From Natrialba magadii ATCC 43099 (lineage in GTDB: Archaea > Halobacteriota > Halobacteria > Halobacteriales > Natrialbaceae): 64,000 nucleotides of DNA. The stretch is from the NCBI RefSeq assembly GCF_000025625.1, contig NC_013922.1:2418001-2482000 (forward strand), written 5' to 3'. The translations under genes were made by a program, and so were the position numbers. The notes beneath the pieces were generated by a model that did no database searches, was not told the origin of the DNA, and was given only the letters and a program-made list of their open reading frames with translations. Below, piece after piece: positions 50,043 to 56,457 of this stretch (the stretch's first letter is position 1; each line of letters opens with the position of its first letter).

Positions 50043-50230
50043 ACAACTAGGTGGTATCATCCAGTAGTGAAAAGTCTGTCGCGATGATTCGCAAGCAGTC
50101 ACCCACCGCGAGCGAAACGGACGGGGGCTGGAGGCAACCCTAACGGAAAAAATAAAATTCCCTATTTGCTGTACCGCGAGAACGTCCCCCGTAACACTGT
50201 TGATAGCATGCATACAATAGTCGAGACACT

Positions 50231-51676
50231 GTGACTCCTTCCGTCTTCGATCCTGGCCTCTCTTTCACCGCAGTCGCTGAAACTGGCCTCAGCGAAATCG
50301 ATGGTAACACCGGCGAATTGCGAATTCAGGGGTTCGACATCGAAGACCTCGCCGAGAACGCGGCGTACGAAGAGGTAATGTGGTTGTTGTTCAACGGACG
50401 ACTCCCAACCGATACCGAATTGGCCACGTTCACGAACGAACTCTCGTCCGCTCGAAGCCTCACAGATACGATCTACAGTCTGATTCAGGAGGGTGCAGAA
50501 GAAGGTGTACCGGCAATAGACGCACTCCGTATGGGGTTGGGAGCGGGAAGCCTCTCTTTCGACAGCGAGGATACCCTCATGGCGACCCGACGCGTCGTCG
50601 CAATCTGTCCACCGATCATCGCAGCCTACTGGCGATATCGCCAAGGGAGAGAGCCGATCCTGCCACGAGAGGACCTCTCACATACGGCAAACTTCTTATA
50701 TATGCTCTCCGGGGTAGAGCCGGCAGAATCGACTGTGAAGGGGGTAGAGACGTATCTCATTACGATCATTGAGCACGGGCTCAATGCCTCAACGTTCGCC
50801 GCTCGAATTATTGGCTCAACTGGATCTGATCCCTTTTCGGCGGCCACTGGTGCCGTCGGGGCACTCAAGGGACCACGACACGGTGGCGCACTCGAACGAG
50901 TTAGTGAGATGCTCACTGGCCTTGACAACGGGACAGACCCAGCAACGTTCGTTCAAGAGCGACTGGAAGGCGATGGGTCGTTTCCCGGATTTGGTCATAT
51001 CGTCTATGAGACTCGAGACCCGCGAGCGGAAATCATCGAACAAGCTGCAGAACACGTGGGCGGGAAACAAGATTCGACACCGTTTCTTCGGAACGCACGA
51101 CAGCTCGAAGCTGTGGCTGCGGAGTATTTCACCGAACAGTATCCCAAGCGACAACTGCACGTGACTGTCGATTACTACGCAGCAGTCCTCCTTTCCGAAC
51201 TCGATATTCCACCAGAACTGTTCACCGCGATCTTTGCGATCGGACGTTCCGCCGGTTGGATGGCCCACTACCTCGAACAGCTCGAAAGCGAGACACTCCT
51301 TCGTCCTCGAACACGATATGTCGGTCCAGACGAACGGTCGTGGATTTCGCGCTCGGACAGATACGTCGCTGGCGATTCGAGTCCTCCTTCATCCACCGAT
51401 CTGGAGGGAATCTCCTCGATCCTTGGCACGCTTTCAGAACCCGCTCGGTTGGAGATCTCATTGATTCTGTATGAGTCGGCAGAGCCACTTTCGTACTCGA
51501 CGATTCGAGCGCAGAGTTCGATTGAAGATAAAGGACGGTTCAACTATCATCTCCGGAAACTTCGTCGCATCTATATCACGAATACAGCGGCTGGCTATTC
51601 GTTGACTGACACGGGTCGGAAAGTTGTCGAGATGCTTGTCGATGACGAGCAATTGCTCGCACAAACAATCGAATAG
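50231..51676 (+). CDS. Citrate-synthase-like enzyme fused to a C-terminal winged-helix DNA-binding domain
   Basis: This is a 481-residue protein. Residues 1-375 are a type II citrate/2-methylcitrate synthase with all catalytic residues: His182 (EHGLNASTF), His217 (GPRHGGA), His256 (GFGHIVYE), Arg265 (DPRA), Asp314 (VDYY), Arg339 and Arg358. Residues about 394-475 form an ArsR/DUF7347-like winged helix ([47 protein letters not shown]). Such a fusion would couple acetyl-CoA or oxaloacetate binding to DNA binding. The start is a GTG 188 bases from the divergent thi4. The paralogue at 55324 lacks the winged helix. Confidence 0.85.
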
Positions 51677-52084
51677 GTCGTTCACGCTTGAAGCTACACT
51701 CAGCCAACGAGGTTCAATCTATAGTAGCCACTGCAAGTCAATGCACACCTGATCGCCAGACTGCTCGGCGATCAGTGTGTAAACAGTTGCAGTTGTTACT
51801 ATAGCAGTGCCGACTGTATCATCGTATTAGTTTGTTATATATTACAATGATGGGCACATATAATATCACATTTCTGCCACAGGAGGAAATATATACTGGC
51901 TGATACCGATCAGATGAATTATATATCGGATAGTGCCCAAGTCTAGTTTGTTAAATACCCTAATACATACTAGCCATTGAGCTTAATAAATATACCTATA
52001 CCGATGAGATATGTTATAATATTGGCTTCATTTGATATATAAATAACAATCTTTATGAGGGTTTCAATATTTGACCGATATGCA
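51677..52084. other. AT-rich spacer with palindromic repeat and possible promoter
   Basis: These 408 bases hold the 86-bp repeat (listed separately), then an AT-rich stretch unlike the rest of the window. TGGGCAC (51851-51857) and GTGCCCA (51933-51939) form an inverted pair 89 bases from end to end around ATATAATATC- and ATATATCGG-type sequence. No gene is supported. The promoter of the phospholipase-like gene must lie near 51960-52060. Confidence 0.5.
51719..51804. mobile_element. 86-bp palindromic repeat, copy 2 (MITE-like)
   Basis: It starts CTATAGTAGCCACTGCAAGT and ends AGTTGTTACTATAG. It is the reverse complement of the copy at 38800-38885, with the same length and only a few differences. 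The two halves pair over about 38 bases around AGACTGCTC. It lies 42 bases after the citrate synthase-winged-helix gene. Confidence 0.85.
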
Positions 52085-53416
52085 ATGTCAAGGAAATCAA
52101 GGCGAAAGGTGCTAAAAGCGATTACAGCAGGATCTACGTTGGGGGTTGCTTCTGGGGTTGGTGCTGCTATGGGTAGTGCGCAAAAGAAGACAGTTAATCC
52201 TAGCGAGGCAGAACCCCCATATCCGGACGTTGAGTACAAGACTGTTGGTGAAGATGTTTGGGAAGCAGTCGGTCCACAGTATTGGCTGCTGACCATTGAC
52301 AGAAGTCGACTTGATGAATTGCTGAAAGTGTCCCCGGGAGGTGACGAACTGACGCAGGATCATGCTGAAACAATTGATGAAATTCGAGACTACTACGAAA
52401 TTGAACAGTTACGTAGAGGTAACGAATTGATCTATACACTCTCTGACCAGGATATTGAACCTGCTAACAAAGACCGGCGCTCTGACTTCCAGTCAGTTGC
52501 AGGAACCGTTCTCGATGGGTTGGCGGCTGAATCAGACAGTGGCGACCCAAGTGTGACCTGGGAACCAGATCATCACGAGGACATGACTCATCCGGCACTG
52601 GCTGACTTCGAAATAGCAATTGGGAGAAGAGATGATATCGCCGAAAGCACGCCACAACCGGACGAATTCGGCTGTGAGGAATGTTCCTTCGACTGGCTAC
52701 CAGGAACCGGCTTCTTAGATGATTTCCTCGTCGATGCTATCGCAGCTGCCGTTAACATGCATTCTGACGCACACACTCACGAGCCATATCACTTCTATTG
52801 GCCCGATCCCCCATCTATCGATCTTTATCTATGGGAGATTGGTCCATCGGCCTTCGGCGGCGCACCAGGTGAGGCTCAATATATGATGGACCAGGCCTAC
52901 GACAGCAGTTTCTCGACGAGACGAGATTATCTCGGATATGCCCTCCACTACGTACAAGATATGGGTGTCCCGCTTCACACCGGTGCAGTCTGGCAGCAGC
53001 TCAACCCCGATCCACAAGGCTGTTCCACTTCAGGCTGTGATCAGTACTTTGATCCAAAATTTGACCTTCACTTCGATTACGAGGAATGGGCGGCGGATAA
53101 CTTCGAAGACGCAGATTGGTACCTAGATGAACCATTCGAAGAATCGTTCAATGATTCGTTCCCGTATCATATCCCCAGCGTTGAGGAAGCGTGCAAAGAT
53201 CTTGCTGAGTATACCACTCAGTATGCGACAACGGTCTTTGAGGAACTCCTCACAACAGGTAGTGACAATCCTTCGTTGTGGGATAGCAAGATTTACGAGC
53301 TTACGCACAACTGTATGTACGAGACCGGCGGCTATACTCGCGGGCTGATCACCCAGTTCTACGACATCGACTCTGACGATTGCGAACCAGGTGAACCGTG
53401 TCCAGAATACAATTAA
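52085..53416 (+). CDS. Secreted zinc-dependent phospholipase C/P1-nuclease-like protein
   Basis: This is a 443-residue protein with a Tat-like N-terminus (SRKSRRKVLKAITAGSTLG, then a small-residue stretch). Zinc-site motifs of the phospholipase C/S1-P1 nuclease fold are visible: NMHSDAHTHEPYHFYW (about 220-236) and LGYALHYVQDMGVPLHTG (about 285-302), the latter the typical H-x2-QD-x3-P-x-H element. Codon use and base composition are clearly AT-richer than in the neighbours, which points to transfer. A lipid or nucleotide substrate outside the cell is likely but unproven. ATG 52085 is preferred to 52055. Confidence 0.7.
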   Translation: MSRKSRRKVLKAITAGSTLGVASGVGAAMGSAQKKTVNPSEAEPPYPDVEYKTVGEDVWEAVGPQYWLLTIDRSRLDELLKVSPGGDELTQDHAETIDEIRDYYEIEQLRRGNELIYTLSDQDIEPANKDRRSDFQSVAGTVLDGLAAESDSGDPSVTWEPDHHEDMTHPALADFEIAIGRRDDIAESTPQPDEFGCEECSFDWLPGTGFLDDFLVDAIAAAVNMHSDAHTHEPYHFYWPDPPSIDLYLWEIGPSAFGGAPGEAQYMMDQAYDSSFSTRRDYLGYALHYVQDMGVPLHTGAVWQQLNPDPQGCSTSGCDQYFDPKFDLHFDYEEWAADNFEDADWYLDEPFEESFNDSFPYHIPSVEEACKDLAEYTTQYATTVFEELLTTGSDNPSLWDSKIYELTHNCMYETGGYTRGLITQFYDIDSDDCEPGEPCPEYN

Positions 53417-53552
53417 AACAGTAGAACTGCTAGCATAACCAGCGTGATGACGCAGGGGGGGACTATGCTGTAGCGTCCTTTTCGTGCTCATCAGCGCATT
53501 AATTAGATAATATTTATATTCCCACAACATTTACCATACTAATATCGATTGT

Positions 53553-54632
53553 ATGGTAATGTCACCCGATCAATTCCAACTCGGTACGAGTACTCGACGG
53601 CGACTGATTACAGGTATTGGAGCCGCGACCGTCGGCTCTCTCGCAGGCTGTCTCTCGGCCGGTGAAACGCGATACACACTCAGGAGTCGACCCCAAACTG
53701 GTGCAGATGCCATCGAATTATTTGCCCTCGAGCCCGCCGCATACGCGTTTCACCAGCGCCAGGTCGACGACGAGTTTGTCGAGTCCCTGCTCGACGAACT
53801 GCACGAGACCGGTTCCGTCGAAACGATCGAAGCGCCCCTCGTTGAAGAACGATCGAACGACGAGGGCGAATACGTCCCTTCCTACGTTCAGGAACAGGAA
53901 GACAGCGAGTTCAGCCGCGTTCGAGTCGACCTGGAGCCGGTCACGATGGAGCGTTGGTGCGTGTGGATGGAACCCCTCGAAGAACTGCCGGACGACGCGG
54001 AGTACGTGACTGATCCAAGTGAACCGCGAGACGTTCCGACGGAGGATCGTTCTGCACTCGACGCGGAAATCCTCGAGGAAGTGACCAGCACTGCGGTTTC
54101 GTCCGTCGTTGGGGACAGGGAGCACACTGACCTGCCGTACCCGCGTCGGGGAGTCGTCTTCTTCGACCCACTGGATCCGGCGGACAGCGAACTCGTGCCG
54201 GAACCACCGTTTCAGTACGCGCTAATCGAACCAGAGGGGCATGGAACGCCCGACGAACTCGCGCTGCGCCTGCACGGAGAGAAAGCGGCCGTGGAGACCA
54301 CCAAGTACAGTCACGAGTTAGTGCCAGTCGCCGACTCGACCGATGGATTCGACGAGCACGTCCGATCCGAACACGTCGCCGTCGAATTTAGTGAGACAAC
54401 TCTCTCCGAAGAGATGGAAACGATTCTCACCGAGTCGGCCGACTCGTCGAGCGGCCCGATGGAGTACGTCGAGGAGGGCGCTCGATCGGATGCGTTCGAC
54501 GAGATTCTCGCTGAACTCGGGCTGGACAACACCGCGCTTTCCGATGGGGAGGAGATCGGGAGCTGGTACCGGTATTACGAGTACGACGACAGGTACTACG
54601 AGATGCGGTACCGGATCAGCGATTTGGTCTGA
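53553..54632 (+). CDS. Tat lipoprotein of unknown function
   Basis: This is a 359-residue protein with signal TRRRLITGIGAATVGSLAGC (lipid Cys at about 33). The mature part is acidic, mostly alpha/beta, with RWCVWMEPLEELPDDAEYV, LPYPRRGVVFFDPLDPADSE and a Tyr-rich C-terminus (WYRYYEYDDRYYEMRY). No family is recognised. GC content returns to normal here after the AT-rich gene before it. Confidence 0.65.
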   Translation: MVMSPDQFQLGTSTRRRLITGIGAATVGSLAGCLSAGETRYTLRSRPQTGADAIELFALEPAAYAFHQRQVDDEFVESLLDELHETGSVETIEAPLVEERSNDEGEYVPSYVQEQEDSEFSRVRVDLEPVTMERWCVWMEPLEELPDDAEYVTDPSEPRDVPTEDRSALDAEILEEVTSTAVSSVVGDREHTDLPYPRRGVVFFDPLDPADSELVPEPPFQYALIEPEGHGTPDELALRLHGEKAAVETTKYSHELVPVADSTDGFDEHVRSEHVAVEFSETTLSEEMETILTESADSSSGPMEYVEEGARSDAFDEILAELGLDNTALSDGEEIGSWYRYYEYDDRYYEMRYRISDLV

Positions 54633-55323
54633 TATTGTCGGACAAAAGTCAGTGAACACTCGATCGCGTCTCGCAGATCATTGCTAGCGTGACTCATCCC
54701 GGCCAGTCCGTTCAGGCGTCCTCGTTGTTCTCGTCGTCACCTTCGTACTCGTCGATGTCGTCGTCAGAGAGCCAGCGGAGGATTTCAGACCGTTCGCTGT
54801 GTAGCAGTCCTCAATGGCGATGTGAGAAAGAAGGAGGTAAAAGTCAACCCTCTCGAGTCACACCATCATCAGTCCAGAACCGCCAAGACTCGATGATTGA
54901 GGGTGTCAGAATTACCGGATACTTATGTCGATCTGAACACAGGGTTCGATTGTGGATGACATCGGGACGAGGATCGCTAAATTATTAGTTATCCGAGAGG
55001 ATTCTGGCCTGAAATCCCATAAAACGGTTTGTTCCTTCGAATAGCCATATGTGATCTAGTGGTTTGTAGGAATCTACCTTCCGAACCTGCAGCGATAGGG
55101 AAGCAGATTTACCCTGTCGTATTGAGAATCGTTCATAGATCGAGCACTCCTTGAAACCCTCTAATGGAGTGTTCCCACTCGTTTCTGAACGAATACCCAC
55201 ACACGAGAACAATTCATTCACTGCCTGATCTGTTCCTGTGGTCGATGATGCGTGGTGGTCGTGGAGAAATGGCCTTCTCCAAAGCCCTATCCCCAATTCT
55301 TCCGTCTCTCGATACGAACTACC
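54633..55323. other. Gene-poor spacer with gene fragments
   Basis: These 691 bases precede the second citrate-synthase gene. The left part has the C-terminal fragment listed at 54712. Around 54950-55050 the plus strand reads DDIGTRIAKLLVIREDSG before a stop, another possible scrap. A minus-strand frame (54985-55344) stays open but overlaps the next gene start and has no recognisable domain. The region looks like decayed accessory DNA. Confidence 0.4.
54712..54810 (-). pseudogene. C-terminal fragment of an unidentified protein
   Basis: The minus strand reads GLLHSERSEILRWLSDDD then IDEYEGDDENNEDA and a TGA, with a TGA also directly upstream. The acidic tail and the helical SEILRWL segment look like a true haloarchaeal protein end. 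No N-terminal part remains. Confidence 0.35.
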
Positions 55324-56457
55324 ATGGGTAACCAAGAGCTCCACCGAGGGTTAGACGGTATCGCCGTCGCGGAAACACGGCTCAGTACGATCGATGGCGA
55401 GGCTGGTGAACTCAGTATCGGGGGATACCCTGTTGCAGAACTCGCCAAGAACGCAATCTACGAGGAAAGTGTGTTCCTGTTGTTCAACAACCGGCTTCCG
55501 ACGAAATCGGAACTCGAGTCGTTCTGCACAGAACTCGCTGGCTACCGGAGCATTTCCACGGAAGTCAGACAGGTGCTTCGACAAGCGGCACGAGAGAACG
55601 CGGACCCGATGGATGCGCTTCGAATGGGAGTAGCCGCAGCCAATCTCGGCGTCGACGTGACGGAACCGACGGAGCTCGCCAAGCGACTGGTAAGTGTAAT
55701 CCCAACTATCGTCACGACCTATTGGCGATATCGCTCGGGCAAAGAGCCGGTCGATCCACGCGACGACCTCGGCCATACCGCGAACTACCTCTACATGCTG
55801 TCCGGCGAAGAGCCCGACCCCGCAGCCGTGAGAGGGCTCGAAACCTACCTCAATACGGTTGTTGACCACGGACTGAACGCATCCACCTTCGTCGCTCGGT
55901 CTATCACGTCATCCGATTCAGATCTCGTTTCTGCAGTAACGGGTGCAGTAGGATCACTGAAGGGGTCGCTTCACGGTGGAGCGCCTGGGCCGGTTTTGGA
56001 GATGCTCCTCACAGCAGACGACTCTGGCGACCCGGAGGGGTATGTACAGGAGAAACTCGATTCCGGTGAGCGGCTTATGGGATTTGGACACCGAGTGTAT
56101 CAGACGCGCGATCCACGTGCCGAGGTCCTCTCCCACGCCGCTGAACGGTTCTATTCTGGATCGGACGACAGAGCGTTCTTCGAATTTGTCGAAGAATTCG
56201 AAGAAACCGCGGTCAACCGACTGGCCGACCACAGGCCTGACCGAAACCTCGAAACAAACGTTGAGTTCTACACGGCTGTGCTCCTGCATGGAGTTGACAT
56301 TCCACAGGAGTTGTTTACGACCACCTTCGCCATGTCACGAGTCGGTGGTTGGACAGCCCACTGCCTCGAGCAGTTAGCAGATAACAAAATAATTCGCCCT
56401 CTGTCCATCTATACTGGTGACCGTGACCGATCGTGGACTCCAGTCGACAGCCGCTAG
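55324..56457 (+). CDS. Citrate-synthase-like enzyme with Asp-to-Glu change at the catalytic site
   Basis: This is a 377-residue type II citrate/2-methylcitrate synthase homologue. It aligns without a single gap with residues 1-375 of the fusion protein at 50231. Conserved: His182 (DHGLNASTF), His217 (GSLHGGA), His256 (GFGHRVYQ), Arg265, Arg339 and Arg358. Residue 314, the catalytic Asp of the NVDFYS motif in other citrate synthases, is Glu (NVEFY). It may have lower or altered activity. The ATG at 55324 is set by this alignment. A decayed palindromic repeat begins at its stop. Confidence 0.85.
   Translation: MGNQELHRGLDGIAVAETRLSTIDGEAGELSIGGYPVAELAKNAIYEESVFLLFNNRLPTKSELESFCTELAGYRSISTEVRQVLRQAARENADPMDALRMGVAAANLGVDVTEPTELAKRLVSVIPTIVTTYWRYRSGKEPVDPRDDLGHTANYLYMLSGEEPDPAAVRGLETYLNTVVDHGLNASTFVARSITSSDSDLVSAVTGAVGSLKGSLHGGAPGPVLEMLLTADDSGDPEGYVQEKLDSGERLMGFGHRVYQTRDPRAEVLSHAAERFYSGSDDRAFFEFVEEFEETAVNRLADHRPDRNLETNVEFYTAVLLHGVDIPQELFTTTFAMSRVGGWTAHCLEQLADNKIIRPLSIYTGDRDRSWTPVDSR

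Follow-up and report, generated by a model that had tools for sequence, protein, structure and literature searches.

A citrate synthase fused to a winged helix in haloarchaea: most likely a one-component transcription factor that controls an auxiliary citrate synthase

The gene at positions 50231..51676 (+ strand) of the window, i.e., of the 64,000-nucleotide stretch of the Natrialba magadii ATCC 43099 genome analyzed here, encodes a citrate synthase joined to a C-terminal winged helix (F). We confirm this fusion, which an earlier note had read from the DNA letters, and propose a new target for it: most likely, F is a one-component regulator built on a citrate synthase and acts on the gene of an auxiliary citrate synthase, the stand-alone paralog S (55324..56457, + strand, 377 aa). 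According to this reading, to which we assign a probability of about 0.82 on the strength of sequence comparison, F would be a transcription factor derived from a citrate synthase that binds two predicted dyads in front of S and controls S. The comparison established the fusion and its single origin, the fixed pairing of F with S, the paired dyads, the association of the dyad motif with the winged helix, and the preservation of the ligand residues.

Domains, residues and descent of F

F comprises 481 aa, starts with GTG and occupies one open frame, as had been claimed. A citrate synthase domain (residues 9-360, 50255..51310, + strand; PF00285, E 2.4e-105) is followed by a linker delimited from the alignment (residues 373-392, 51347..51406, + strand), in which R-x-VAGDS is common to most F of both sub-clades, and by a winged helix of the DUF7347 type (residues 398-468, 51422..51634, + strand; PF24038, E 3.3e-17, 63 bits against the curated Pfam cut-off of 27.6). 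The AF2 model of the citrate synthase domain matched citrate synthase structures in Foldseek (E 3e-24 to 6aby). The full-length AF2 model gave the winged helix low confidence; when modeled separately with 29 sequences, it reached a pLDDT of 88.6 with the element order H-H-H-E-E-H, and its best PDB folds in Foldseek were the ArsR/MarR-type repressors HucR, SmtB, SqrR, BigR and YodB (probability 1.00, TM 0.6-0.76, with modest E-values of about 1e-3 to 1e-2). Profile, model and fold search agree on the C-terminal winged helix of the earlier note. The best conserved part of F is the S-I... block in the recognition-helix region (residues 430-445, 51518..51565, + strand), which consists of invariant alignment columns. 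Pfam gave no match to an N-terminal HTH_17/MerR domain in F, and with the haloarchaeal CitZ equivalog NF041301, F scored 336.6 bits, below the curated cut-off of 550. A DNA-binding domain and a ligand domain are combined in one chain, as in a one-component transcription factor.

The citrate synthase part is complete and its catalytic His, Asp and Arg positions align, again as claimed: F keeps the ligand-binding and catalytic residues H182, H217, H256, R265, D314, R339 and R358, and the oxaloacetate-binding positions are retained in the alignment. Because these oxaloacetate-binding and catalytic residues are retained, we infer that F senses a ligand, which would be oxaloacetate or an acyl-CoA. 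All F deviate at two sites adjoining the catalytic histidines. The Leu/Ala preceding the second His is replaced by Arg (GPRHGG), a residue found there in 0/16 other haloarchaeal S-like and CitZ genes and in 2/11 S, and the Arg of GFGHR is gone (Ile in the F of N. magadii), which is the case in none of 27 haloarchaeal S, S-like and CitZ genes. One F (L064) has, in addition, Arg in place of the His of HGLNAS. The two altered positions, together with the long stem of the main F sub-clade (0.71 changes per site in a mixture-model tree), suggest that the binding site was kept for sensing while catalysis was changed or lost; F is probably a dedicated gene switch, an enzyme fold turned metabolite sensor.

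In trigger enzymes such as PutA and BirA, a metabolic enzyme fold carries a DNA-binding domain and a ligand controls transcription. F likewise joins an enzyme fold, that of a different enzyme, to a DNA-binding domain, and it could be a full enzyme for which DNA binding is secondary: a bifunctional, PutA-like protein that condenses oxaloacetate with acetyl- or propionyl-CoA and goes on and off DNA with its substrate load, or that forms mixed dimers with S, which would then be target and co-subunit at once. The catalytic and oxaloacetate-binding residues kept in F favor such an enzyme, and mixed dimers are favored by the fact that F and S are paralogs (about 48% identical), always adjacent, in a family whose active sites are shared between subunits. 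Yet all F carry two otherwise rare changes beside the catalytic histidines, the stem of the main sub-clade is long, and an undisturbed citrate synthase and S are both encoded in the same genome, so that we regard a bifunctional F as doubtful. Regulator and catalyst seem here to be split between the paralogs, in contrast to PutA and BirA. S carries Glu at the catalytic Asp position, as does Bacillus subtilis citrate synthase 1 (2c6x), and the third citrate synthase of the genome (C1:1505348-1506475, 447 bits to PF00285) is, by its score, the housekeeping one. The earlier note had offered either a metabolic sensor controlling genes or an enzyme tethered to DNA; the former is well supported by the comparative evidence, the latter is less likely.

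The full-length fusion was found in 13 haloarchaeal species, including N. magadii, that span several families. When 391 genomes of the class were scanned, the full-length fusion turned up in N. magadii itself and in 8 of the 390 others, and these eight relatives are 49-96% identical to the N. magadii F over the whole length. More F were located on named contigs of Natrialba sp. SSL1, Halovivax sp. KZCA124, Halogranum rubrum, strain YIM A00010 and Actinarchaeum halophilum, partly of the same species as the relatives from the class scan; a scan of the order with the winged helix alone added F in two genomes (G435 and G438), and a megaplasmid of Halomontanus rarus also carries F. The citrate synthase domains of all F form one clade in the mixture-model tree (support 100/95). 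Two origins of the fusion were considered after FastTree had split F into two places, and were rejected in favor of the single clade; the split is probably a long-branch effect. Values of dN/dS between species were 0.14-0.20 for the citrate synthase and 0.03-0.17 for the winged helix, i.e., both domains are under purifying selection, and together with the 13 species this rules out an assembly or read-through artefact. Could F be a normal citrate synthase whose C-terminal extension is only decorative or in decay, an accidental fusion without function? The rarity of the fusion (the own genome and 8/390 of the other class genomes sampled) speaks for this, but the fusion arose once, long ago, and occurs across several families, its winged helix is under purifying selection with an invariant recognition block, and the predicted operators described below are co-conserved. 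This explanation is in essence refuted, and we consider it extremely improbable.

The F-S pair and the dyads in front of S

The gene maps of 13 loci show F followed by S on the same strand, and other neighbors vary between these loci. The earlier note had proposed to look for the same architecture and a fixed neighborhood in archaeal genomes; among haloarchaea the architecture recurs, the constant part of its neighborhood being the F-S pair. The gap between the two genes measures 155-267 bp in twelve loci. In this genome only, an insertion of 3.4 kb (51677..55092), which begins directly after the stop codon of F, splits F from S and leaves both dyads attached to S. Within the insertion there is a MITE-like inverted-repeat element of 86 bp (window 51719-51804, CTATAGTAG...TACTATAG) with about 40 copies in the genome at >=92% identity, and there are two genes (52055-53416 and 53553-54632) whose products, 453 and 359 aa long, have signal-like N-termini and matched no Pfam family. 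On two megaplasmids, integrase genes (L119:9471-10652 and L120:5687-6985) lie close to S, hinting that the module moves.

When the F-S gaps were aligned, a dyad emerged ahead of S, GGRGAA-N6-TTCYCC. In N. magadii it occurs twice: as the predicted operator O1 (55097..55114, AGGGAAGCAGATTTACCC), which fits the dyad at 10/12 positions and has an equivalent in all pairs, and as the predicted operator O2 (55263..55280, GGAGAAATGGCCTTCTCC), which fits at 12/12 and is the sole exact GGRGAA-N6-TTCYCC in the 4.4 Mb of its genome. A BRE/TATA-like stretch (55281..55291, + strand, AAAGCCCTATC) abuts O2, with a geometry as in azlC promoters (TTCTCC-GAAnnTTTA). All 13 S promoters and that of the S of Haloprofundus salinisoli have a dyad of 11-12/12 at -52 to -61 relative to the start of S (in N. 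magadii this start, 55324, was set by homology, the longest ORF beginning at 55252), and the same 14 promoters have a second dyad of 10-12/12 located 107-188 bp further upstream. Among 5964 dinucleotide shuffles, one site of at least 11/12 arose in 0.4% and two sites in none; as a background, 196 kb of comparable loci from haloarchaea contained 6 sites that scored at least 11/12. The regions ahead of 19 S-like genes in genomes that lack F contained no dyad of at least 11/12, and the upstream regions of F none at 11/12. With regard to a wider regulon, exact dyads elsewhere in genomes with F are few, and four stray sites (L115-L118) show no clear pattern.

The spacer between F and thi4 (50043-50230), which had been proposed as the first target, found no support: it holds no dyad of at least 10/12, the gene read as thi4 adjoins F in the two Natrialba loci alone, and the predicted operators are found instead downstream of F, before S. 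A different element, CCGTAACACTGTTG (50189..50202, + strand), lies some 40 nt before F begins; it is conserved in six of the closer pairs that were aligned and probably serves F itself as a promoter or control element.

Haloprofundus salinisoli has S and both dyads but no F, which fits a recent loss of F; another protein might use the dyads there. In G159 (L097:7565-8353), an in-frame deletion has removed residues 36-242 of F, the frame has stayed open and the winged helix is kept, and neither S nor a dyad was found in 18 kb. Both the decay of F in G159 and its loss in Haloprofundus salinisoli agree with F acting on S.

The dyad beside stand-alone winged-helix genes

In genomes without F, exact dyads were found directly beside the closest stand-alone homolog of the fused winged helix. 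Fifteen such loci were retrieved, of which 14 encode small proteins of the azl type (~118 aa) and one a longer protein of another type. The azl-type proteins are linked to azlCD and 33-43% identical to the fused domain, and a dyad of 11-12/12 is present in 14/14 of their loci, as the only site of at least 11/12 in each 8-10 kb, whereas the fifteenth locus has no dyad. The dyad coincides with the stop codon of the winged-helix gene or is no more than a few dozen bases away from it, before azlC and azlD (PF03591 and PF05437; azlC was checked with Pfam in two loci and assigned by sequence motif or position in the others), and it abuts GAAnnTTTA, a BRE/TATA-like element comparable to the stretch in the S promoters. 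These loci (L099-L110, L112 and L113) represent a recurrent haloarchaeal unit, DUF7347 regulator-dyad-azlC-azlD, with a predicted operator. In a further locus (L114:3319-5215), a dyad is located just after the stop codon of a DUF7347-DUF7351 protein and before a cupin-like gene. The azlC region of N. magadii itself has no dyad.

The azlCD regulators resemble F in the type of winged helix, in the dyad abutting a BRE/TATA-like element and in the position of the gene directly upstream of its target; unlike F they have no sensor domain, and they would control a predicted branched-chain amino acid transporter instead of a citrate synthase. The same type of winged helix accompanies the dyad in the S and azl settings, which means that motif and domain go together in two unrelated gene settings. 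This bears on the view that the dyads serve another regulator and that the winged helix of F acts elsewhere (on its own promoter or on thi4) or only in oligomerization. Haloprofundus salinisoli, with S and dyads but without F, and the separate CCGTAACACTGTTG element upstream of F would suit that view; however, the dyad stands beside all 14 azl-type homologs of the fused domain in other genomes, and it is missing from the promoters of S-like genes in genomes without F and likewise from the thi4 spacer. We consider a different regulator improbable.

For F as the regulator of S, we envisage the duplication of an S/gltA-type citrate synthase gene in haloarchaea, after which one of the copies acquired a DUF7347-type winged helix at its C-terminal end; elsewhere, a winged helix of this type would be a small local regulator of azlCD. 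DNA specificity would have arrived with this domain, so that a dimer of F would read GGRGAA-N6-TTCYCC at the two sites ahead of S, O2 next to the BRE/TATA region and O1 107-188 bp upstream, and F would switch S transcription through occupancy of its citrate synthase site with oxaloacetate and/or acyl-CoA. Physical binding of the dyads by F and the geometry of the dimer are, we infer, part of this mechanism; activation or repression of S is not readable from the position of the dyads.

Related systems and significance

The earlier note had remarked that citrate synthases are not normally DNA-binding proteins. This is true, although bacterial fusions of an N-terminal HTH_17/MerR domain with a citrate synthase exist in databases as 'citrate synthase family protein', e.g., ATU_RS25370 of Agrobacterium fabrum C58 and proteins of Niveispirillum, Azospirillum and Deinococcus. 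Like F, they join a citrate synthase to a DNA-binding domain and have often lost the Arg after GFGH, but their DNA-binding domain is the N-terminal HTH_17/MerR and not a C-terminal DUF7347; two of eight inspected (Niveispirillum, Agrobacterium) are divergent to a solo citrate synthase gene, whereas F and S are in tandem. Most of the others among these loci (L131, L139-L145) adjoin CoA transferase or pyruvate carboxyltransferase genes. Such neighborhoods are an arrangement typical of local regulators. The best tree places F inside the haloarchaeal citrate synthases, with the bacterial fusions far off, and gives no support to F as a transferred bacterial fusion with a swapped DNA-binding domain (in the AU test a joint clade was not rejected, p-AU 0.186); the archaeal fusion probably evolved separately. 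No paper on archaeal or bacterial fusions of this kind was found in the literature searched, in which few subscription journals were covered, and the bacterial proteins are apparently unstudied as regulators. We lean, by a narrow preference, toward the broader view that the citrate synthase fold became a transcription-factor sensor more than once, in bacteria and in archaea, each time when a duplicated copy was joined with a local DNA-binding domain; the archaeal winged helix would have brought the operator specificity, and F and S would form a self-contained oxaloacetate/acyl-CoA switch at the entry of the citrate cycle.

The citrate synthase CitA of Caulobacter has a regulatory role independent of catalysis (PMC7083601). 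It is, like F, a citrate synthase paralog used as a regulator, but it has no DNA-binding domain and acts indirectly on CtrA. In Haloferax mediterranei, a knock-down of gltA raises PHBV (PMC8387396), which indicates that an S-type citrate synthase draws on acetyl-CoA. We take gltA to be the plasmid-borne S-type gene L121, because this is the sole citrate synthase match on that plasmid; it belongs to the S sub-family, but has no F partner, an Lrp/AsnC gene nearby and only a 10/12 dyad at -208.

The F-S pair would provide a concrete case in archaea of a central enzyme turned gene regulator, for which the protein, a predicted target and predicted operators can be named, and it suggests that archaea read their acetyl-CoA/oxaloacetate state through a dedicated sensor. 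For the winged helices of the uncharacterized DUF7347 type it yields a candidate binding site, and it brings the bacterial HTH-citrate synthase proteins into view. A biosensor based on citrate synthase could be useful for work on bioplastics from haloarchaea, where acetyl-CoA is drawn off by competing citrate synthases.
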